Virus record (IMG/VR): IMGVR_UViG_3300022074_000369
Span: 1 to 24,217 of that record
Length of the DNA: 24,217 bases
Source: a virus
Reading direction: 5' to 3' (one strand)
Shown one piece after another: positions 4,951 to 24,201 of the stretch. The notes under the pieces were generated by a model. That model worked only from the letters and a program-made list of their open reading frames with translations. It had not been told where the DNA came from and made no database searches. The translations under genes and the position numbers were made by a program. Within the stretch, counting starts at the first letter, position 1. Every line of letters starts with the position of its first letter.

Positions 4951-7131
4951 TCACGCTGGAGTGTCCTCTGTTCTGTCTAAAACGTCCATATTAATTGAAA
5001 GAGAATTACTACTACTATAAGGTGCATCGCCCACTATATTATCTGACATTGCAACAGAAACCGCATTGGCATAACTACCAACACCATCTACTATAGCATC
5101 TTCTCCCATATTTGCAGAAGTTCCATCATTGCTTCCTTTTTCATCTAATACAGTCCAGTTAGTATTAAAAGAACTATTACTTCCTAACTGCCACCAGCTT
5201 ACTAAGTTTGAATATGCACTATGGTTGTTTAGGTTAGATGGTACACCTTCGTTATAAATTTCTGATACTTGTGTAGAGGTTAAAGCTGTATTCCAGATTG
5301 AAACATTTGAAATAGAACCATTGAAAGAATAAGTTGCTCCATCCCAAGTTCCTATATATAATTTTTTACCAGCAAAATCTAACTGGTCTGGCGTTGGTGA
5401 TGTACCAGATGGTGTTATCGTTAGTAGCTGACCATCAAAATACATTTTTATATCAGTTACACTACCATTTGGTGTCATAATTACTGCTAAATGATGCCAA
5501 TTTGTGTCGTATGTATAACCATTAGTAGCGTTATAGTCTAATTGAATTGATGGATACGTAGTAGCATTTATTCCAAATCTTATAAAATTAGTATATGTTA
5601 ACACAGTAAACTCACCCCAACCACTTGTAGTAAAATTAATTAAACCACCTAATGTGTTTGAGCTTCTTTTAAACCATAAAGAAGCAGTTAAAGAGCCAGC
5701 GTAGTTATCTCCTATTGAATCACCTAATCCAGTTCCACAATCTATATAATCATTACTACCATCAAAATCTAAAGCATAAGGAGAGTAACCACTTGTAAAA
5801 CTTAAATCACTTTGTACTAAATTGGCTTGTGTCATTCCTGAGCTTGTGCCATCGTTAGAACCAGCGTGGTCTTCAATCGTCCAATTTCCTGTTGAAGAAT
5901 CATAAGTATCAGAAGCATCTAATTTCCACCAACCTGAAGGTGTATTAGTATAAGAATTTGCTGGAGTTCCATTATTATAAATATTATCTTTTTCAGAACT
6001 TTGGTCGCTATTCCATATAACCAAATTAGAAACAAGTCCTGAATAATCGTTACCTGTAGAACCACCCCAACTACCAATGTAAAGACTTGTAGTTGCACTA
6101 TCTATTGATGCTGTAGCTGTTAAAGTGTTTACAAAAACGCTATCTTCATAAACTGTCCAAGTTTTTGCTGTATCATTAAAAATCATTATAGAATTATGCC
6201 AATTGCCATCAAAAACAACATTCCCTTCTTCTATTCTTTTTCTTTCTGAACCAGCGTAAATTTCATATCTTAATTTATTGTTTAAAACATATACATTTAA
6301 AACACTACTTCCACCAACTCTATATAATAAATAATCATAATTAACGACAGAATTGCTATTGTACCAAATTGAAATAGACAAGTCGCTGCCAGAAAAATTA
6401 AATAAATTATCTATAGTTATATTGTCTCCATTGCCTGGAAAATCAAAAACATAATCTTTCAGAGAACTATTAGGCACTAAATAATTAGAACCATTAAAAG
6501 CATCTTGGTCACCTAAAGGATAGTATGCAACAGGCTTTGGAGATAAACTCATTGGATTACCTATACCAGTAGAGCTTGAACCATAAAGAGTTGTTACTTG
6601 GCTTGAAGAAAGAGCGTAGTCAAAAATACTAAATGAGTCCATAGAATCTGTAGTTTGTAACGACCACATCAAATAATCTACTTTTGAATCAAAAGTTCCT
6701 AAACTTGATGTTCCATTTAGAGAATCAACTAAATTTCCATTTGCGTATAATTTAACATCTTGAGTTGTTGATGTAACTTCTTGTCTTGTTATTACCCAAT
6801 GCACCCAATCAGTTAAAGCAAGAGCGTTTTGAGTAGCTGTGCTATTAAATGTTATATATCCATCTCCATATCTAACATATATAGCACTTGAACCAGCCAT
6901 GTACATTCCATAATAAAGACTACCAGTACTAATTCTATAAGGTTGAGTGGCTACTGTATTATTTGTTCTTTTTAACCAAAAAGAAAATGAACTTGTTACA
7001 CCTACATTAGCTGGTGTTGATATATTTATTCTTGAGTTTGTACCAGGAGACTTCATAGAATAGTTACTCTGCTTGTCTTTATTCTCATTGTTAGGCAAAC
7101 GCCATTGGTCATTTATAAATTCTGTACTCAT
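4951..7131 (-). CDS. Triple-LamG tail adhesin / receptor-binding candidate
   Basis: The 726-residue protein contains three LamG/concanavalin-like jelly-roll domains, about residues 22-186, 228-390 and 452-632. Each shows the usual features: a strand pair with FW or WF, a WHH/WVHWV strand, a D/N-G-x-L turn, YIG.W.G and a final (I/V)xNxA.S..Q helix start. The linkers hold YYPLGDQDAF and WWKLDASDTY. The segment SNDGTS occurs twice (425-430 and 667-672). LamG domains bind carbohydrates or proteins, so host surface recognition is likely. The C-terminal 60 residues end NMDVLDRTEDTPA, reminiscent of other Bacteroidota phage virion proteins. It starts one base after the 657-residue adhesin gene. No signal peptide is present, as expected for a virion protein. 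Confidence 0.75.
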   Translation of the reverse strand: MSTEFINDQWRLPNNENKDKQSNYSMKSPGTNSRINISTPANVGVTSSFSFWLKRTNNTVATQPYRISTGSLYYGMYMAGSSAIYVRYGDGYITFNSTATQNALALTDWVHWVITRQEVTSTTQDVKLYANGNLVDSLNGTSSLGTFDSKVDYLMWSLQTTDSMDSFSIFDYALSSSQVTTLYGSSSTGIGNPMSLSPKPVAYYPLGDQDAFNGSNYLVPNSSLKDYVFDFPGNGDNITIDNLFNFSGSDLSISIWYNSNSVVNYDYLLYRVGGSSVLNVYVLNNKLRYEIYAGSERKRIEEGNVVFDGNWHNSIMIFNDTAKTWTVYEDSVFVNTLTATASIDSATTSLYIGSWGGSTGNDYSGLVSNLVIWNSDQSSEKDNIYNNGTPANSYTNTPSGWWKLDASDTYDSSTGNWTIEDHAGSNDGTSSGMTQANLVQSDLSFTSGYSPYALDFDGSNDYIDCGTGLGDSIGDNYAGSLTASLWFKRSSNTLGGLINFTTSGWGEFTVLTYTNFIRFGINATTYPSIQLDYNATNGYTYDTNWHHLAVIMTPNGSVTDIKMYFDGQLLTITPSGTSPTPDQLDFAGKKLYIGTWDGATYSFNGSISNVSIWNTALTSTQVSEIYNEGVPSNLNNHSAYSNLVSWWQLGSNSSFNTNWTVLDEKGSNDGTSANMGEDAIVDGVGSYANAVSVAMSDNIVGDAPYSSSNSLSINMDVLDRTEDTPA

Positions 7132-7132
7132 A

Positions 7133-9106
7133 TTAATCTCCCATTCTATTCCAGTAAACCAAGTTGCTACCTGATACTGTGGTTAAGTCTTTAGTTAAAT
7201 TAGTTGATGTTCCGTTGTAAATACTTTGTATTTGTGTAGATGTTAGAGCTGTGTTCCAGATTGCAAGCTCGTCAAGGTTTCCAGAATATTCTTTATTTGC
7301 TGAACCAGTTCTTGCACCAATTAAAGAAGTTGCTCCTGTTGATGTGATTGTGTTAAAACTTGCACTTATTGTTGGACTTTGTTTAACTCCTTGGTAGTAG
7401 ATTTTTATTCTATCATCATTAACTGCTTGTCCACCATCAAAAACCATTACAATGTGAGTCCAAACACCATTAGATGGCGATGCAAGAAATGCGTTTTTTG
7501 AACCACCTTGAGAGCTATTATTTACGTGAAAATAAACATCTGTTCCATATCTGTAAATTTCAACCCTATCTGTCCAAGATGTTGTTTGGTTTCTATTTGT
7601 AAATATAGTTTGTTCGGTTGTGCCGCTTGCAAATTCAGCCCAAAAAGAAATAGTAAATTGTGCCACATTATTTAAAGCTGATAAAACACCAATATTAATA
7701 TGTTGAGTTCCATCAAATGACATACTGTAATTATTAGCAATTCCAGCAGCAGTTACAGCTAAATCAAATGTTGATGAATTAGGACATCCAGCTCCACTTG
7801 TTTCATAGAATATTTTATAAGATTGTATAGTAGAAGCAGCTAAATCTATTTCACCAGTAGAAGAGTTAATACTTAATCCACTTGGATAAGCACTATAAAC
7901 ACCACCTGAAGTTGTAGGAGTAGTTGTTAAACTTGCTGTTCCTGTTTGTGGTAAACTGCTTGCAGAATATCCAAATGTAGCACCATCTAAAGCATTTATT
8001 GTTACTGTATTATTTACTGTATTTGGACAACTTCCATTTGTAGTATATACAACAGTATATGTTCCAGCTGTAGAACTATTGACATTTATAACACCTGTAG
8101 AACTATCTATACTTAGGTTTCCAGTAGATTCGCTAAATGTTCCACTTTGACCAGTAATCGCTGGAGCTGGTGTCGTTAGTGAATAAGTATTGTGATATAT
8201 TACTACTCCAGCGTTTGGCATATAATAAGTTCCTCCTGTTAAAGAATGAGCATGAGAACCCCCATCACTACTTGCTGCATTTGCATCTGCTTGGTTAGCA
8301 TATAAAGGATAATAACCATCTATAGCTAAAGCACCAGTTGGCATTTGACAATAAGCACTTGCTGAATAAGTTACTGTAGCAGTATCTAAAGGTAATTCTG
8401 TTACTGTTACTTGAGCAGATGTGTTAGAACATCCGTTAGAGTCTGTAACTGTTACCGTATAACTACCAGCAGTTGCACTAATAGTTTGAGTAGTTGCACC
8501 TGTTGACCATAGATAAGAAACAAAACTTCCAGCGTCTAAAGTTGTGTTAGACCCAATACAATAAGTTAATGTTCCTGTAATAGCTACAGTTGGTAAAGGA
8601 TGAACTGTTACATCTACAGAGTCTGTAGCAGAACATGCACCGTTAAATCCAGTCACTGTGTAAGTAGTGTTTGTTGTAGGGTCAACAGTTATGCTAGCAG
8701 TAGTTTCACCAGTTGACCAAGAATAAGTAGTAGCACCTGAAGCAGTTAACACAGTACTGTTTCCAGTACATATAGCAACGTCAGCACCAGCAGAAACAAC
8801 AGGAATAGTGTCTATAGAAATAGAAGTTGTAGCAGTGTCAGAACTTGGAGCAGTATAAGTCACAACATAAGTTCCAGGAGTAGAAGCAGATAAGTCTACT
8901 TGTCCAGTAGAAGTAGAAATAAATACTAGTCCAGTAGTACTAGAGAAAGTTCCTCCAGTGTCTCCAGTTATTCCAGGAATAGGGTCTGTTCCATCTTCAC
9001 AAAATCTAGCAGCACTATATTGAATAGCTAATCTGTCCCCTCCAGTAGCACCAGACGGCATGTAAAATAAACCTTTTTTTCTATTTGGATTGTAAAATAT
9101 AGCCAT
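7133..9106 (-). CDS. Virion adhesin with PKD-like (SprB-type) repeats and C-terminal LamG
   Basis: The 657-residue protein is a mosaic. Three similar beta modules (about 35-98, 310-370, 376-450) each carry G..S..STG.i.l..S..G.Y.v.Y. Between the first two sit two PKD/Ig-like repeats (101-168 and 170-236) with SWSTGETTAS or LWSTGATTQT and TVTDSNGC, the pattern of flavobacterial gliding and surface adhesins. A segment at 250-308 holds GGSHAHSLTGGTYYMPN. The C-terminus (455-640) is a LamG domain with WTHIVMVFDG, and ends LVYWNRMGD. It probably forms part of a tail fibre or virion surface that contacts host glycans. It lies between tail-completion and triple-LamG genes with one- to two-base gaps. 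Confidence 0.75.
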   Translation of the reverse strand: MAIFYNPNRKKGLFYMPSGATGGDRLAIQYSAARFCEDGTDPIPGITGDTGGTFSSTTGLVFISTSTGQVDLSASTPGTYVVTYTAPSSDTATTSISIDTIPVVSAGADVAICTGNSTVLTASGATTYSWSTGETTASITVDPTTNTTYTVTGFNGACSATDSVDVTVHPLPTVAITGTLTYCIGSNTTLDAGSFVSYLWSTGATTQTISATAGSYTVTVTDSNGCSNTSAQVTVTELPLDTATVTYSASAYCQMPTGALAIDGYYPLYANQADANAASSDGGSHAHSLTGGTYYMPNAGVVIYHNTYSLTTPAPAITGQSGTFSESTGNLSIDSSTGVINVNSSTAGTYTVVYTTNGSCPNTVNNTVTINALDGATFGYSASSLPQTGTASLTTTPTTSGGVYSAYPSGLSINSSTGEIDLAASTIQSYKIFYETSGAGCPNSSTFDLAVTAAGIANNYSMSFDGTQHINIGVLSALNNVAQFTISFWAEFASGTTEQTIFTNRNQTTSWTDRVEIYRYGTDVYFHVNNSSQGGSKNAFLASPSNGVWTHIVMVFDGGQAVNDDRIKIYYQGVKQSPTISASFNTITSTGATSLIGARTGSANKEYSGNLDELAIWNTALTSTQIQSIYNGTSTNLTKDLTTVSGSNLVYWNRMGD

Positions 9107-9108
9107 CT

Positions 9109-9576
9109 TTATTCTATTGGTAAATCACAATTATTATAACTAAACGGAAGTCTAAATCCTATATTCATTCCCCAGCCTGTCAATTCGTCTGAAAATCTCT
9201 CTGTAAAACTAGTCAAAGTTCCTGACCTAACTAAGTTAACTTTTAACCAATCTACATTGTTACTAGTAGCAGTCTTTTGTTCAAAGTAAGAAACGCAATC
9301 TAGTAGCACTTGACACATATCAGACTTTACATCATTCTCATTAGACTCGTCTTTGCTTACTAGGTCCATAGCCATAACATTAAAATTCCAAGTAAAAGTC
9401 CCATCACCTAAATTAGCTGGCTGGTCAGCTACCCAAAATAGTGGATAGTTAAAGTCTGTTAGCTGGTTATGTTCTACTATTTCCCATAAGTCACCATTGC
9501 CAAAGTTCTCTATTTGCTTATGGTTAGTAGCAAAAGTTTCAAACTCTTTTAATATTTGATTATAGGTTAATATCAT
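9109..9576 (-). CDS. Putative tail-completion / neck protein
   Basis: The 155-residue protein starts MILTYNQILKEFETFATNHKQI and contains YPLFWVADQPANL, a central acidic helix and FSDELTGWGMNIGFRLPF near the C-terminus. The alternating strands and its place directly after a head-tail connector gene fit a tail-completion or tail-terminator protein of siphophages, which would cap the tail tube at the neck. The assignment rests mostly on gene order and on resemblance to proteins in this position in Bacteroidota phages. Its ATG overlaps the connector stop as ATGA, implying coupled expression. A second neck component is an alternative reading. Confidence 0.55.
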   Translation of the reverse strand: MILTYNQILKEFETFATNHKQIENFGNGDLWEIVEHNQLTDFNYPLFWVADQPANLGDGTFTWNFNVMAMDLVSKDESNENDVKSDMCQVLLDCVSYFEQKTATSNNVDWLKVNLVRSGTLTSFTERFSDELTGWGMNIGFRLPFSYNNCDLPIE

Positions 9577-10121
9577 TTTTCACTATTTCTATATTCGTCC
9601 CTCCAGCAATCACTTCTACTGCTACCACCTAAATAAAAACTAGTTTGGTAAGCTGTTTTTCTAGGGTGTAAATCGTCACTGTTTTCCTTATACTTAGGGA
9701 ATAAATTGTCGTTGTCACATAAGTAATTTATTAACCTAGCTTCTCTTTCTTCTGCTTTGTTCTTCCATTCGTCTCTCAAATATTGTAAGTCTTGGTAGCT
9801 AATAGGATTGCTATTCTCACTGTTCTTAGTTGCCACAGATTTGTTTCTATATTTAAATAGCATTGATGTACTGCACTCATACATAGTCCATTGTGCCATA
9901 GCTGGAGCTATATAGGTGTCTAGTAAATTAACTTCGTCACTGTTTAAAGTTCCAGCAGTTATTTTAGTTTTTAAATCTTCATAGAATGGAGTCCCTAATA
10001 TTGGATGGATTCTTAACTCCTGACAGTCTTTAATACTTGGTAATATTAATTTTACAGATACATTCTCGTCAATAAGAGTAGTGTTCTTTACATATTGTTC
10101 TGATATAAATAAAACTGCCAT
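9573..10121 (-). CDS. Putative head-tail connector protein
   Basis: This 182-residue, largely helical protein begins MAVLFISEQYVKNTTLIDENV and has IHPILGTPFYEDLK (about 37-50), then ITAGTLNSDEVNLLDTYIAPAMAQWTMY. The pattern of helices, with a G..(F/Y)Y..L turn and a LL..YI.PA..... helix, is that of gp6/gp15-type head-tail adaptors that dock under the portal ring. Its place soon after the portal gene and before the tail-completion gene fits. The ATG at 10121 overlaps the small upstream gene as TAATG. The C-terminal Asp/Tyr-rich tail (residues 140-182) is less typical. Confidence 0.65.
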   Translation of the reverse strand: MAVLFISEQYVKNTTLIDENVSVKLILPSIKDCQELRIHPILGTPFYEDLKTKITAGTLNSDEVNLLDTYIAPAMAQWTMYECSTSMLFKYRNKSVATKNSENSNPISYQDLQYLRDEWKNKAEEREARLINYLCDNDNLFPKYKENSDDLHPRKTAYQTSFYLGGSSRSDCWRDEYRNSEK

Positions 10122-16043: not shown

Positions 16044-18086
16044 TTAAAATGTTGCCTGTCCTTGTATTACAGCGACAGAGTTTTGTGTTGATGTTATATC
16101 TGTTTCAGTTACAAATACTTGAGTTTGTTGTTGAGGGACTAGTGTGCTAGTGTTAGCTGGTTGTAGAGTTGGGGGTGTTCCTCCACCGCCTCCGCCTCCT
16201 CCACCAAAAGAGGGAGTTTGAACTCCACCACCTCCAGGACTACTAGTCTGAAATTGTTGTTTAGATATTGCAGCCACGTTAGCCAATCCATTAACTATAG
16301 CAATTCCAGCAGCAATAAACGGTTGAGCTGGAAATAAGACTGTGGCTGGGTTTAATGCAGCAGCAGAAAAAATAGCGTTTGCACCTTGGTAAGTTGACAT
16401 AATAGCCTGTGCTATTTGTAGTTTCTTATTTATCTCAAATGCACGTCTTTGACTCTTTTCATTGTCTTTAGCAAAAGCAGAAGTTAAGTTTATTAAAGCA
16501 CCTACTCCGTCAATAGCTAAACCTATTTTAGCATCTTCTACAGCTTGCTGTCTTTCTAAATCTTCTTTAGCAAACTTCTTTTTAATTTCATTTATTTCGT
16601 GTTCTCTAGCTTCTTCTAAGACTGTAATATCTTCACCATATAATTTAGCCTGTTCTATTAGATTAAAATATTTATCTGCTACAGCGTTTTCCTCTTGTTG
16701 TTGTTGAGTTAATAAACTTTCAAAATATAGATTTTCTAAATCTTCTTTAGTTTGTAAAAAGTTTATATAGTCCTCAACAGCTTTATTGTCTCTAGCCGCT
16801 TGGTCTGCTATTTCTTTAGCGTTTTTCTTATCTCTTTTAGCCTTAGCATCTGCATTAACTTTGTCAATTTTATCCTGTTTAGTTTTAGCTGCTTTAGCAT
16901 CCATGTCAATGACTCTCAACTGAAAACCAGCCAAAGCATTTTCTTGTAACATTAACTGTTCCTCTAATTTCTTTAAGTCTTCTTTTCCTTGAGCCTCTGT
17001 TTCTGATGGGTCAAAAACTAAAGTGCTAGCTTTCTCAATTAATTTATTAGCTTTTTCAGTTAAACCAAAAGTCATATCAATAGGCTCTAGTCCAAATATT
17101 TTTTTCCCAACTGTGCTTTGTGTAATACCGTTAATTAATTTTGCTATTCCCTCACCTAAAAAGTCAATAGTTTTTAATAACAATAATGGACCAGCAGACA
17201 ATAGTTTTAAAGTGAACTGTAGTATTCTCTGATTTCTTTTACTTCCCTCTTCCTTTTCTTTATTAACTACCTTTTGAGCAGCTAATTCATTTTTAATTGA
17301 TTGAACAACTTTTTTCTGTCCGTCAATTTTCATCATTAAAATTTCACGCTCTGTCTTACCTTGTAGTTTTAAGATGTTTTCTTGGTTGTTTAAAGTCTCT
17401 AGGTTTTTTTTGTTTAGTTCTGTTGTTGCTTTTGTGCTGGCTTGTAAGTCTTTACTAGCGTCATTAACTCCGTTTATAGCATTTTTAATTTTATCAAAGT
17501 TTGCTATTAACTCACCAACCAACACAACTAAAGCACCAATTCCAGTTGCTATAATTGCACCTCTTAAAAACTTAAATGATTTAGATGTAGTGTCTACAGA
17601 CTTACTAAATAAGCCCATAACAGTTGAGGCTACTATAGTTGTAGCATTGTTTAACTTTTGAAACGCTGTAGAGTTTTTAATAATATTATTAAATAACTTC
17701 ATAGCAGATTGAGTTCCCTCAATAGCACCTTTAAAAGCCATAGAGATTCCAATAGCTTTTTCTATGTTTCTAACAGTGTCCTCTATAGCACCACCTCCAC
17801 CACCTAGTAGAATAAAAGCAGCAGAAACGTCACCAACAGCACCAGCAACAGAACCAAGTTCAGAAGCTACCTGTTCATTATCTAAAGCCTCCATAGATAA
17901 CTCAGTGTTTTTAATTTGTTTATTAACACCGACTAACTCTTGTTTTAAATCCTTAAAAGCCTTAGTCCCTAAAGGAACTTTTCTTAACTCCTCGTTTAAT
18001 CTTTCCGCTTCCTCCTCTAATTGTCCTAGTGAGGTTGTTGCTCCCTTTGCATTTATATCTATTTCTAAAGCTACTTTTTCTGCCAT
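16044..18086 (-). CDS. Tape measure protein
   Basis: The 680-residue protein begins VALEIDINAKGATTSLGQLEEEAERLNEEL, a typical tape-measure start with coiled coil. It has a hydrophobic stretch (about 170-195, FLRGAIIATGIGALVVLVGELI), long Lys/Glu/Ala helices between about 380 and 510, a second hydrophobic region near 590-610, and a Gly-rich stretch (GGGGGGGGG near 632-640). It ends in TSTQNSVAVIQGQATF. It sets tail length and probably helps DNA pass into the cell. Usual scaling of about 0.15 nm per residue predicts a tail near 100 nm. The preceding gene stops one base before its ATG. It is followed by the protease rather than by more tail genes. Confidence 0.85.
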   Translation of the reverse strand: MAEKVALEIDINAKGATTSLGQLEEEAERLNEELRKVPLGTKAFKDLKQELVGVNKQIKNTELSMEALDNEQVASELGSVAGAVGDVSAAFILLGGGGGAIEDTVRNIEKAIGISMAFKGAIEGTQSAMKLFNNIIKNSTAFQKLNNATTIVASTVMGLFSKSVDTTSKSFKFLRGAIIATGIGALVVLVGELIANFDKIKNAINGVNDASKDLQASTKATTELNKKNLETLNNQENILKLQGKTEREILMMKIDGQKKVVQSIKNELAAQKVVNKEKEEGSKRNQRILQFTLKLLSAGPLLLLKTIDFLGEGIAKLINGITQSTVGKKIFGLEPIDMTFGLTEKANKLIEKASTLVFDPSETEAQGKEDLKKLEEQLMLQENALAGFQLRVIDMDAKAAKTKQDKIDKVNADAKAKRDKKNAKEIADQAARDNKAVEDYINFLQTKEDLENLYFESLLTQQQQEENAVADKYFNLIEQAKLYGEDITVLEEAREHEINEIKKKFAKEDLERQQAVEDAKIGLAIDGVGALINLTSAFAKDNEKSQRRAFEINKKLQIAQAIMSTYQGANAIFSAAALNPATVLFPAQPFIAAGIAIVNGLANVAAISKQQFQTSSPGGGGVQTPSFGGGGGGGGGTPPTLQPANTSTLVPQQQTQVFVTETDITSTQNSVAVIQGQATF

Positions 18087-21185: not shown

Positions 21186-22516
21186 TAAAATCTCTGTCTA
21201 AAATTGTTAATACCAAACTCTAAATTTACTTCTAAATTAAATACTTTGTCTACACTAGAAACCTTTTCTTCCCAATTACCTTCAATATTTTTAACTGGGA
21301 TTCGTCTAATCTCTGTACTTCCTGACGGTGCTGTGTAGCTATCCATTAAATAAATCTCAGGACTTTCTATAAGTTCTAACAACCAATTATAAGTATTATA
21401 GTCAATCCAGTCAGAAGTTAGTTTCATTTTAGGCATTGACTTAGTATAGTATTGGACTTTTTCTCTACTAGATATAGAGTAGTCTATAGCACCTGTCAAA
21501 CTTAAATCATTTGGAGTAGTTTTAAAAAACTTCCTTTCTATCTCTTCTGTATGTCTTGATACTTTAGTAAAGTTAAAATAATCAAAACCACCCAAACTAT
21601 TTAAGAACTCTAGTCTCCTAGTTTCAAATCTGCATTCTGTATCTATGTTAAAATAAAACTTTTCAGAAGCTATAGCTCCACCCCCTTTTAAAGCAATATA
21701 GTAAGAAGTTGCATTGGTGTTAATTATTGGTTGACTTCCTGTTGATATGTAAGAACTATTAATTTTATTTATTGAAGCTGGTCCAATAGGTATTCTTAAA
21801 TAACTAAATGTTGTTAATGTTGGAACTGTTAAAACTGTAGTAGATATTGATATATTACTAGAGTTATATTCTTGTATTATAATTTCATCTATTGGGTCAT
21901 TAGCATGGTCATATAAAACATATATATAACCCTCATCAGTATAATTTAATTTTTGATTATAACTACTATTTGAAATTAATCCATTAGGTGAGTTAGTCAA
22001 AAACTTTCTAGTAGACGAATTGTCTGTATATTTTTCATAGTAGTTATTGTATTGCCAATCATAGAAATTTACAACGTCTCTTCTATATCTTGGTAAACTA
22101 CCGTTAAAAGTTAGTAGGTCATAAGAAGTGCCAGTAGTAGTGTCTGGGAATGTTACAGTTTGTGGAATGTCATAAGTTGCAGATCCTGTGTTATAATGTA
22201 CCCAACCAAATTCCAAAGTAAAATCTTTATATGAATTACTATTATTTTCTACAGTAGCAATATTAGTTCCATTTAACAAACCTAAATCACTAGATATATA
22301 ACTCTCCATAATACCAGACATATCAAATCTCCCAAAACCTTCTGTAGTTGGAGGAACTTTTAATCTACCTACTGTAGTAGCACCATCCTTAACATCAATC
22401 AAATAAGCAAATCCAGGATAGTTTCTAGTAGCATTTACTGTTTCATATAATACAACCTCTACAGGATTGTAGACTGTTCTAAATTGTTGTGGTAGGTATT
22501 TAATTTCTAAACTCAT
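21185..22516 (-). CDS. Distal tail / baseplate protein
   Basis: The 443-residue protein begins MSLEIKYLPQQFRTVYNPVEV and is beta-rich throughout, with KVPPTTEGFGRFDMSGIMESY (53-73), RYRRDVVNFYDWQYNNYYEKYTD and a conserved-looking ETRRLEFLNSLGGFDYFNFT around 298-317. The last segment ends VFNLEVNLEFGINNFRQRF. The LEFLN..GGFDYF strand pair is typical of tail proteins in Bacteroidota siphophages, where this gene lies beside the baseplate-hub gene. A distal tail or tail-tip role fits. It overlaps the upstream gene as ATGA and couples downstream by TAATG. Confidence 0.65.
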   Translation of the reverse strand: MSLEIKYLPQQFRTVYNPVEVVLYETVNATRNYPGFAYLIDVKDGATTVGRLKVPPTTEGFGRFDMSGIMESYISSDLGLLNGTNIATVENNSNSYKDFTLEFGWVHYNTGSATYDIPQTVTFPDTTTGTSYDLLTFNGSLPRYRRDVVNFYDWQYNNYYEKYTDNSSTRKFLTNSPNGLISNSSYNQKLNYTDEGYIYVLYDHANDPIDEIIIQEYNSSNISISTTVLTVPTLTTFSYLRIPIGPASINKINSSYISTGSQPIINTNATSYYIALKGGGAIASEKFYFNIDTECRFETRRLEFLNSLGGFDYFNFTKVSRHTEEIERKFFKTTPNDLSLTGAIDYSISSREKVQYYTKSMPKMKLTSDWIDYNTYNWLLELIESPEIYLMDSYTAPSGSTEIRRIPVKNIEGNWEEKVSSVDKVFNLEVNLEFGINNFRQRF

Positions 22517-23091
22517 TTTTTTAATATTTCTTTTAATCCTTTTGCTACTCTTTCTCCTGACACTATTCTAATTTCTGTTTTAAACTTATCAAAAGCCTGA
22601 CCGTAGAAAGTCTCTTGCATACAGTTGTCAAAAAAGTATCTAGGTCTAATTCCAGTTCTAGCAATAGAGTTTCTTACTGCATATTCGTTAAGCCCTTTGC
22701 TTTTAGACCAGGCTTTAACATGACTAACCTTTGGACCTTTCTTAAACTGATAAGGACTATTAGGTGCTTTTATATCCCATGGTTGACCTTTTCTATCTCC
22801 ACTCTTTCTAATCCCTCCAATACCTTTAACACCCTGATTAAGATAATCGTAATAGTCAGCTAGATATAATGTAGCAACCATTCTAAATCCAAACATTTTA
22901 ACAGGCATTCTTATAGACTTCTGTAAACTACCTTTATAGACTAACCCCTCTTTTTGAACAGATTGCTGTAAACAATAAACCATGTCAGCAGCAATGTTAT
23001 TAAACACTTGACTCAATGTAGTAGGATTGTCTATTTTAACTTCCTCTAACTGGTCAGCATCAAAACCAAATATGTCTAATTGGTCTGTCAT
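22513..23091 (-). CDS. Tail-module protein, possibly gp10-like or tail assembly
   Basis: This 192-residue, basic protein has MTDQLDIFGFDADQLEEVKI, AADMVYCLQQSVQKEGLVYKGSLQKSI (34-60), LYLADYYDYLNQGVKGIGG and PYQFKKGPKVSHVKAWSKSKGL, and ends in GLKEILKK. The central Y..YLNQGV.G..G...K segment is typical of small tail or neck proteins in HK97-like systems, where it is usually called HK97 gp10-like. The tail setting between the chaperone and distal tail genes supports a tail role. Its ATG overlaps the frameshifted chaperone stop (TAATG), and its stop overlaps the next start (ATGA). Confidence 0.55.
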   Translation of the reverse strand: MTDQLDIFGFDADQLEEVKIDNPTTLSQVFNNIAADMVYCLQQSVQKEGLVYKGSLQKSIRMPVKMFGFRMVATLYLADYYDYLNQGVKGIGGIRKSGDRKGQPWDIKAPNSPYQFKKGPKVSHVKAWSKSKGLNEYAVRNSIARTGIRPRYFFDNCMQETFYGQAFDKFKTEIRIVSGERVAKGLKEILKK

Positions 23092-23369
23092 TATCTATGT
23101 TTGTACTTTTGCCTCATTTCTCTTTGGACCTGTTGTTCCATCTTTTGTTTATCACTATAATAAGCTACTATGTTTAGAGCTTTAGTTATATCCCAGTTTA
23201 GTATCTCATCCCATTTATCTATCCTACTATTAGTCAAATTGTCTAAGGTGTGCCACCATCCCCAGCGTTGACCAAATCCAGTTCCTCCCTTGCTTCCTTC
23301 GTCATCTTCTCGGCTTCCTGCATCAAACAAGTTTTTATAGCTTTTGTTAAGTCCTCCGAGTGAGTGTAA
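23091..23369 (-). CDS. T extension of tail assembly chaperone, made by -1 frameshift
   Basis: This frame continues from the G gene after a -1 slip at the T9 run and adds 92 residues, giving a GT fusion of about 265. It has GGTGFGQRWGWWHTLDNLTN, then KWDEILNWDITKALNIVAYYSDKQ, the aromatic pattern usual for T parts of phage chaperones. There is no ATG before the last quarter of the frame; the only earlier start is TTG at 23330 with no ribosome-binding sequence. Free initiation is therefore unlikely. An in-frame stop lies upstream of the slip site in this frame, so only ribosomes from G can enter it. Lambda G/GT is the precedent: GT binds the tape measure and the tube subunits. Confidence 0.7.
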   Translation of the reverse strand, partial: LHSLGGLNKSYKNLFDAGSREDDEGSKGGTGFGQRWGWWHTLDNLTNSRIDKWDEILNWDITKALNIVAYYSDKQKMEQQVQREMRQKYKHR

Positions 23370-23887
23370 AAAAAAACACCTATTGGGTAAGCTATTGTCA
23401 TTGGCATATTATTTAGAAAGTTATCTGCTGTCTTTCTAAGGACCTCACTATCCACGTCAATATGTTTCCAACCAAATACAGTCTTTTTAACTGGTCTACA
23501 AATAGTAGTTAGTATATGATGTAAGTTATTAAATATTGCTTCCTCATCATCTTTAGCATTTTGCAGAATCTCCATGCTGTTAATATACTCACCAAATAAT
23601 AACTTCTTAGCATCTACTTTAAACTCATACCACTGACCACCAATCTTAAATCTTTTGTCTTTTAGTTGTTTAGGGAGTTCTGTCTCTAAGAAACTCATTT
23701 TCTTTTTAATAGACTTAAACTGCTTTAAAGTAATATTCTTTATTACATCTCTTTTCTGTCCTGTTAAGACTGCTAGAATGTTGACTACTCTTTCTATGGG
23801 GTTTAGTTTAGAGTTTAGTACTGGTCTTAGGTTGATGTAATTTCCTATTGTAACATCTTCCCACTTTGTTGGGATTGTAATTTCCAT
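23243..23887 (-). CDS. Tail assembly chaperone G-like protein
   Basis: The 214-residue protein starts MEITIPTKWEDVTIGNYINL and has VVNILAVLTGQKRDVIKNIT, FKIGGQWYEFKVDAKKLLFGEYI and NNLHHILTTICRPVKK. It is helical and has the size and position expected of a G-type tail chaperone. Such proteins coat the tape measure during tail assembly and are not part of the virion. The last 127 bases overlap another frame that is translated only after a frameshift (next entries). The ATG at 23887 follows a promoter-like motif with only five bases between. It is the first gene after the right-end noncoding stretch. Confidence 0.7.
   Translation of the reverse strand: MEITIPTKWEDVTIGNYINLRPVLNSKLNPIERVVNILAVLTGQKRDVIKNITLKQFKSIKKKMSFLETELPKQLKDKRFKIGGQWYEFKVDAKKLLFGEYINSMEILQNAKDDEEAIFNNLHHILTTICRPVKKTVFGWKHIDVDSEVLRKTADNFLNNMPMTIAYPIGVFFYTHSEDLTKAIKTCLMQEAEKMTKEAREELDLVNAGDGGTP
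23369..23375 (-). promoter_or_regulatory. Programmed -1 frameshift slippery heptamer (T TTT TTT)
   Basis: Within a run of nine T (23376-23368) the zero frame reads GTT TTT TTT TAC. The heptamer T TTT TTT therefore sits in the right register for simultaneous P- and A-site slippage into the -1 frame. The next -1 codons are TTA CAC TCA. A five-base inverted pair CTCGG/CCGAG begins about eight bases downstream (23360-23356 with 23313-23309), a weak candidate stimulator. Confidence 0.7.
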
Positions 23888-24158: not shown

Positions 24159-24201
24159 CCCATTTGCTCAGCATTTGCTTAGCATTTGCTCAGCATTTGC
24201 T
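24159..24201. repeat. Iteron-like 11-base direct repeats, each a near-perfect dyad
   Basis: AGCATTTGCT occurs exactly at 24170-24179, 24181-24190 and 24192-24201, with one base between copies, and a partial copy (CATTTGCT) precedes them at 24161-24168. The period is 11 bases, about one helical turn. Each unit is itself an inverted repeat (AGCA, two bases, TGCT). This pattern fits a binding site array for an initiator, a terminase small subunit or a regulator. Confidence 0.75.

Follow-up and report, generated by a model that had tools for sequence, protein, structure and literature searches.

A run of nine Ts lies where two overlapping reading frames meet in what is probably the G/GT tail-assembly chaperone gene of a Bacteroidota siphophage, and comparison with relatives makes it likely that the run is a site of programmed transcriptional slippage at which U9 becomes U10. 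A fusion made at the T run is well supported by sequence evidence; the finding is real and widespread, and the architecture is of a known kind. On balance it also seems probable that in a large family of phage tail chaperones, thought likely to come from Bacteroidota phages, the G:GT ratio is set by polymerase slippage at T9 or T10, which would take the place of a lambda-like ribosomal frameshift.

In the proposed mechanism, most mRNAs would carry the nine templated Us and yield G (214 aa), while slippage of RNA polymerase on T9 would produce others that have ten Us (or seven). Ordinary translation of the slipped mRNAs would then enter the -1 frame and give rise to GT (265 aa with ten Us), a protein that is presumably produced. 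Both polymerase and ribosome may act on the same run.

Arrangement of the two reading frames

The window analysed here is a 24,217-base IMG/VR virus record, and all genes discussed lie on its minus strand. According to the list of open reading frames and their translations, the short product G (214 aa) is encoded at 23243–23887, from ATG to TAG. The T9 run occupies 23368–23376, where it is read GTT TTT TTT TAC in the context ...GGT GTT TTT TTT TAC ACT..., and is kept in relatives. The T part, delimited by translation and by a -1-frame motif found across 52 clusters of relatives, extends over 23091–23369 in the -1 frame (92 residues and a TAA stop), and the predicted GT fusion combines residues 1–173 of G with this part to give 265 aa, with the predicted junction peptide ...YPIGVFFLHSLGGLNK in the window. 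A -1-frame TAA at 23409–23411, some 36 nt ahead of the heptamer contained in the run, sets the upstream limit for a shift; downstream of the run, the -1 frame stays open as far as a TAA at 23091–23093, and this stop overlaps the start codon of the next gene in the sequence TAATG. This next gene (192 aa, 22513–23091, from the open reading frame list) has homologues downstream of G/GT in many relatives. The C-terminal tail of G and the start of T share the two-frame overlap 23246–23367, as delineated by substitution counts.

No ATG occurs in the -1 frame of the window between the T9 run and the Trp-rich tail of T, which reads RWGWW...KWDEILNW; in near relatives, inspection of the sequences reveals that a zero-frame GDGG tail is encoded by the same bases as the -1-frame WGWW. 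The initial annotation of this DNA had described the open -1 frame, the stop just upstream of the run, the missing ATG and the Trp-rich, T-like end, and each of these features holds. Upstream of G, in an AT-rich stretch that is free of long ORFs, the window also contains 3.7 tandem copies of an 11-base unit (CATTTGCTCAG; 24161–24201).

Relatives and their conservation

Relatives were collected by scans of viral contigs (viral_contigs) and from one isolate genome; the queries were the G and T peptides and not the T run, so that conservation of the run is not built into the sample. A G ORF is present in 496 sequences, many contigs having been fetched repeatedly; 275 of these are unique and 262 complete, and the complete genes fall into 52 clusters when the identity threshold is 60%, 21 when it is 50% and 12 when it is 40%. 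Cluster representatives are about 16–27% identical to the G of the window. A further viral scan added one new contig (L505), likewise T9, and two scans of bacterial genome contigs found no relatives. The only isolated relatives found in the phage collection are the Nonlabens phages P12024S and P12024L, both T9, and it is from these isolates that we infer a Bacteroidota host. The G homologue of P12024S is about 23% identical to that of the window; ORFs 38 and 39 of this phage correspond to G and T and are deposited as two hypothetical proteins.

Two records stand apart. L335 (G004; 43 kb) contains two G homologues, at 9228–9857 and 39656–40297, suggesting that the contig is chimeric or that two phages have been joined. 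Flavobacterium phage 6H (L499) encodes a G homologue, AGN89393, that is very distantly related (E about 1e-4), is without T9 and has a -1-frame stop just past its T6; a shift in this phage, if any, must use another site. An unannotated open -1 frame of roughly 105 aa directly follows AGN89393 (10048–10351, minus strand).

The T run is conserved beyond what chance would give. In 37 near relatives its nine sites show no changes, compared with 3.05 per third-codon site upstream; the probability that its three wobble sites remain unchanged is about 1e-4 (Poisson), and of 501 windows of 9 nt taken upstream, a single one is equally free of change. Across the wider sample the run is T9 or T10 in 51 of the 52 clusters and in 260 of the 262 unique genes (T9 in 221, T10 in 39, T8 in two), and T lies in the -1 frame relative to G in 260 of the 262 unique complete genes, so that the run and the downstream frame, which the initial annotation had proposed to compare in related phages, are both kept.

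Substitution patterns in the 37 near relatives change frame along the gene. Upstream of the run, zero-frame third positions carry 3.05 substitutions per site versus 0.35 at second positions; in the overlap, substitutions fall on the wobble positions of both frames; and downstream, the -1-frame wobble position has 3.32 substitutions versus 0.42 and 0.65 at the other two. Within 23246–23367 the counts thereby move away from position 3 of the zero frame and towards the wobble position of the -1 frame. A -1-frame motif, [LF]-x-F-R-x-x-[LIV]-x3-[YF]-x2-L-[FY], is common to the 52 clusters and begins at the first post-run codon. Ahead of the Trp motif, the -1 frame contains no ATG in 51 of 52 clusters and none of ATG, GTG and TTG in 33 of 52. 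It is the combination of -1-frame conservation, the lack of ATG and the frame change of substitution periodicity at the run that argues for a fusion made there, in agreement with the recoded fusion put forward in the initial annotation.

Polymerase or ribosome

The initial annotation ascribed the fusion to -1 ribosomal frameshifting. In such an event, of the kind seen in lambda G/GT or P2 E+E', two tRNA-Phe would slip back by one base on T_TTT_TTT (23369–23375) and the ribosome would continue into T. The direction and architecture are right for this, the heptamer is in register in all T9 and T10 genes, and ribosomal shifting is firmly established in other tail chaperones (PMC5009743, PMC3711429). 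We nevertheless regard it as an unlikely, if serious, explanation here. The in-register heptamer is indeed present, but it is no evidence for the ribosome since, by simple arithmetic, every T9 contains one in-register T_TTT_TTT regardless of phase. Seven Ts would be enough for a ribosome, yet nearly all lineages have at least nine in every register with the flanking Ts trading off, no other type of heptamer substitutes in 51 of 52 clusters, and phage P2, a ribosomal case, has merely six Ts. In E. coli, U_UUU_UUU is a weak shift site (PMC5009743).

Polymerase slippage accounts better for these features. In many bacteria, selection against A/T runs becomes evident at a length of nine, and the sign of purposeful slippage is a 9A or 9T run whose length is conserved in homologues; mxiE provides an experimental case in which a longer product arises via a nucleotide inserted at a U run (PMC1088944). 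The phage family shares two features with programmed slippage genes such as mxiE, dnaX and those of IS elements: all but one of its 52 clusters have an A/T run of nine or more, and the run length is independent of codon register. The transcriptional reading is favoured because the run is at least nine long in all three registers, with upstream and downstream Ts trading off, because this length matches the threshold for slippage by RNA polymerase, and because no downstream structure is shared; the same points speak against the ribosomal slip of the initial annotation. In the literature searched, in which subscription journals are thinly covered, no account of transcriptional slippage in tail chaperones was found.

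The trade-off emerges when one counts the Ts that precede the in-register heptamer (u) and those that follow it (d). The first T of a run may fall on codon position 1, 2 or 3, and the genes are distributed over the (u,d) combinations (1,1) with 210, (2,1) with 18, (1,2) with 12, (0,3) with nine, (2,0) with seven and (0,2) with four. Genes with u=0, in which the upstream codon encodes Ser or Asp, always have a d of 2 or more (the next codon being TTG or TTT), and in u=1 clusters the next codon always starts with T (Tyr, Trp, Ser, Phe or Leu). In the clade with u=2 and d=0, by contrast, the next codon specifies Ile, Val or Arg; the T-starting codon is therefore dispensable when the run is already nine. 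Given a d of at least 1, d is 2 or more in 5/5 u=0 clusters versus 4/40 u=1 clusters (Fisher P=1e-4, phylogeny ignored). The tree contains about four separate u=0 lineages and 12 state changes, and P is about 1e-3 to 1e-4 when 3–4 independent lineages are counted. Permutation at the level of clusters, again ignoring phylogeny, gave a mean of 8.1 short cases, and none of 200,000 shuffles was as low as the single one observed. Most genes have Leu or Phe as the first residue of T, so that d must be at least 1 in them, and part of the T excess could hence be protein-driven.

Base composition and the remaining coding DNA bear on the same question. Members with more than 42% GC use TTC for 66% of their Phe codons elsewhere, yet 34 of 35 have T9. 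In 160 kb of other coding DNA, no A/T runs of nine or more were observed versus 11 expected from synonymous shuffling, the expected long runs being mostly A and those of T9 numbering merely 0.4. This absence is what one would predict if runs of this length slip in these hosts; avoidance of poly-A has other possible reasons.

Stimulatory elements of the kind that would assist a ribosome do not recur. An RNA structure shared between lineages was not found downstream or upstream of the run in 15 lineages, in which most z-scores are near 0 and the only outliers are L129 (z -3.0) downstream, L185 in a longer window and L187 upstream; nor is there, by eye, a shared SD-like motif in the 25 nt upstream. 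The two T8 genes call for separate consideration. One, L036, is seen in just one contig from a near relative and is possibly an error. The second, L277 (IMGVR_UViG_3300005346_000102), has 69% GC and reads TTT TTT TTG; its heptamer, T_TTT_TTG, is that of P2 E+E', which speaks for the ribosomal reading, and going by this sequence L277 may represent a ribosomal-shift lineage inside the family.

Separate starts and changes in the DNA

A separate T protein made from its own start, by re-initiation or from a TTG, with the run incidental, is very improbable. P12024S has an ATG for the T ORF at the G stop, with the T ORF annotated separately, and a TTG at 23330 in the window could open a 79-aa ORF. 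Against this stand the lack of start codons in most clusters and the conservation of the -1 frame from the first post-run codon (LSFRxRL...Y..LF), before any start; moreover, no more than 15 of 29 near relatives have TTG at this codon, the run is invariant in the 37 near relatives compared, and P12024S has its T9 run nonetheless. Conservation of the -1 frame without starts and the poor conservation of the TTG led us to reject an own start for T. Relatives with an ATG for T and without the T run, which the initial annotation had named as counterexamples, did not turn up. DNA-level phase variation, with replication changing the run length and genomes switching between G and GT forms, is the least credible explanation and was likewise rejected: homopolymers are mutable and the near-relative contig L036 is T8, but the G and T frames differ wherever both are found (261 of 262 unique genes), a fused ORF is absent among the 262, and each infection would need both products.

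Identity of the gene and its genomic context

Architecture and context make a tail-chaperone role likely. On its strand, G/GT is the first gene of a block that comprises tail and head genes, and the fourth gene after it (16044–18086, minus strand) encodes a tape-measure-like protein of 680 aa with matches to PHROG 24676 (1e-12) and PHROG 1506 (7e-10). In the window and in 4/4 further records where it was found, the tape measure lies 5–7 kb downstream of G/GT on the same strand and is not adjacent to it. The G of the window matches phrog_32199, to which no function is assigned there, over most of the protein (residues 1–181, E=1.7e-5).

Database searches add little to this picture. The PHROGs and PDB sequence searches returned no named tail-chaperone match, and the Pfam search placed no family member above the cut-off; the commonest Pfam match, Phage_TAC_7 (PF10109), concerns 3/51 members, all weak and below the gathering cut-off (best E-values 0.03 and 0.05; 13.4 bits for L119 versus a cut-off of 25). 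An AlphaFold2 model of G (pLDDT 83.9) found no match among PDB folds, and in BFVD it matched uncharacterised phage proteins, named tail chaperones reaching merely E=0.025 and 0.29; the model of the T part is poor (pLDDT 62). The tail chaperone named in the initial annotation is thus plausible by context, without confirmation from Pfam, PHROGs or PDB, and we infer a tail-assembly role. Further along the window, two long repetitive proteins (7133–9106 and 4951–7131) resemble by eye Bacteroidota surface or adhesion domains (Ig/PKD-like, LamG-like) and are possible receptor-binding parts.

Comparison with known systems

As in lambda gpG/gpGT, a short protein and a -1-frame C-terminal fusion would derive from one gene, the pair precedes the tape-measure gene within the late region, and T is without an independent start. 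Lambda, however, shifts on the ribosome, whereas the genes described here have a T9/T10 run of conserved length; three genes separate G/GT from the tape measure here, and searches by sequence and by fold matched no chaperone of solved structure. P2 gpE/gpE+E' (Phage_TAC_7) shares the T-rich site, the -1 direction and the longer tail product, and E+E' is annotated as a -1 translational frameshift; the P2 site, GGT TTT TTG, has six Ts in contrast with T9/T10, and the Pfam matches of the family described here are all weak (E of at least 0.03).

The closest parallels to the proposed polymerase slippage come from bacterial genes (PMC1088944). In Shigella mxiE, an inserted nucleotide joins two overlapping ORFs to give a longer product, as proposed here; mxiE is a bacterial regulator for which this has been shown by experiment, whereas the phage case concerns a structural gene and is deduced from comparison. 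Thermus thermophilus dnaX likewise has a run of nine and two products made by polymerase slippage, but the run is A9 and slippage yields the shorter product. The dnaX gene is recoded by the ribosome in E. coli and by the polymerase in Thermus (PMC1088944).

For tail chaperones, the recoding of G/GT counts as textbook ribosomal frameshifting that is kept across tailed phages. The conserved run length described here suggests a variant in which RNA polymerase shifts the frame. If this is true, it is the product pair that would be conserved and not the machine that makes it, in parallel to dnaX. In phrog_32199 and in ORFs 38/39 of P12024S, G homologues are labelled hypothetical and the fusion was missed in the deposited record; a simple annotation rule, a conserved T9 or T10 before an open -1 frame, would then recover the missed fusion in hundreds of phages.
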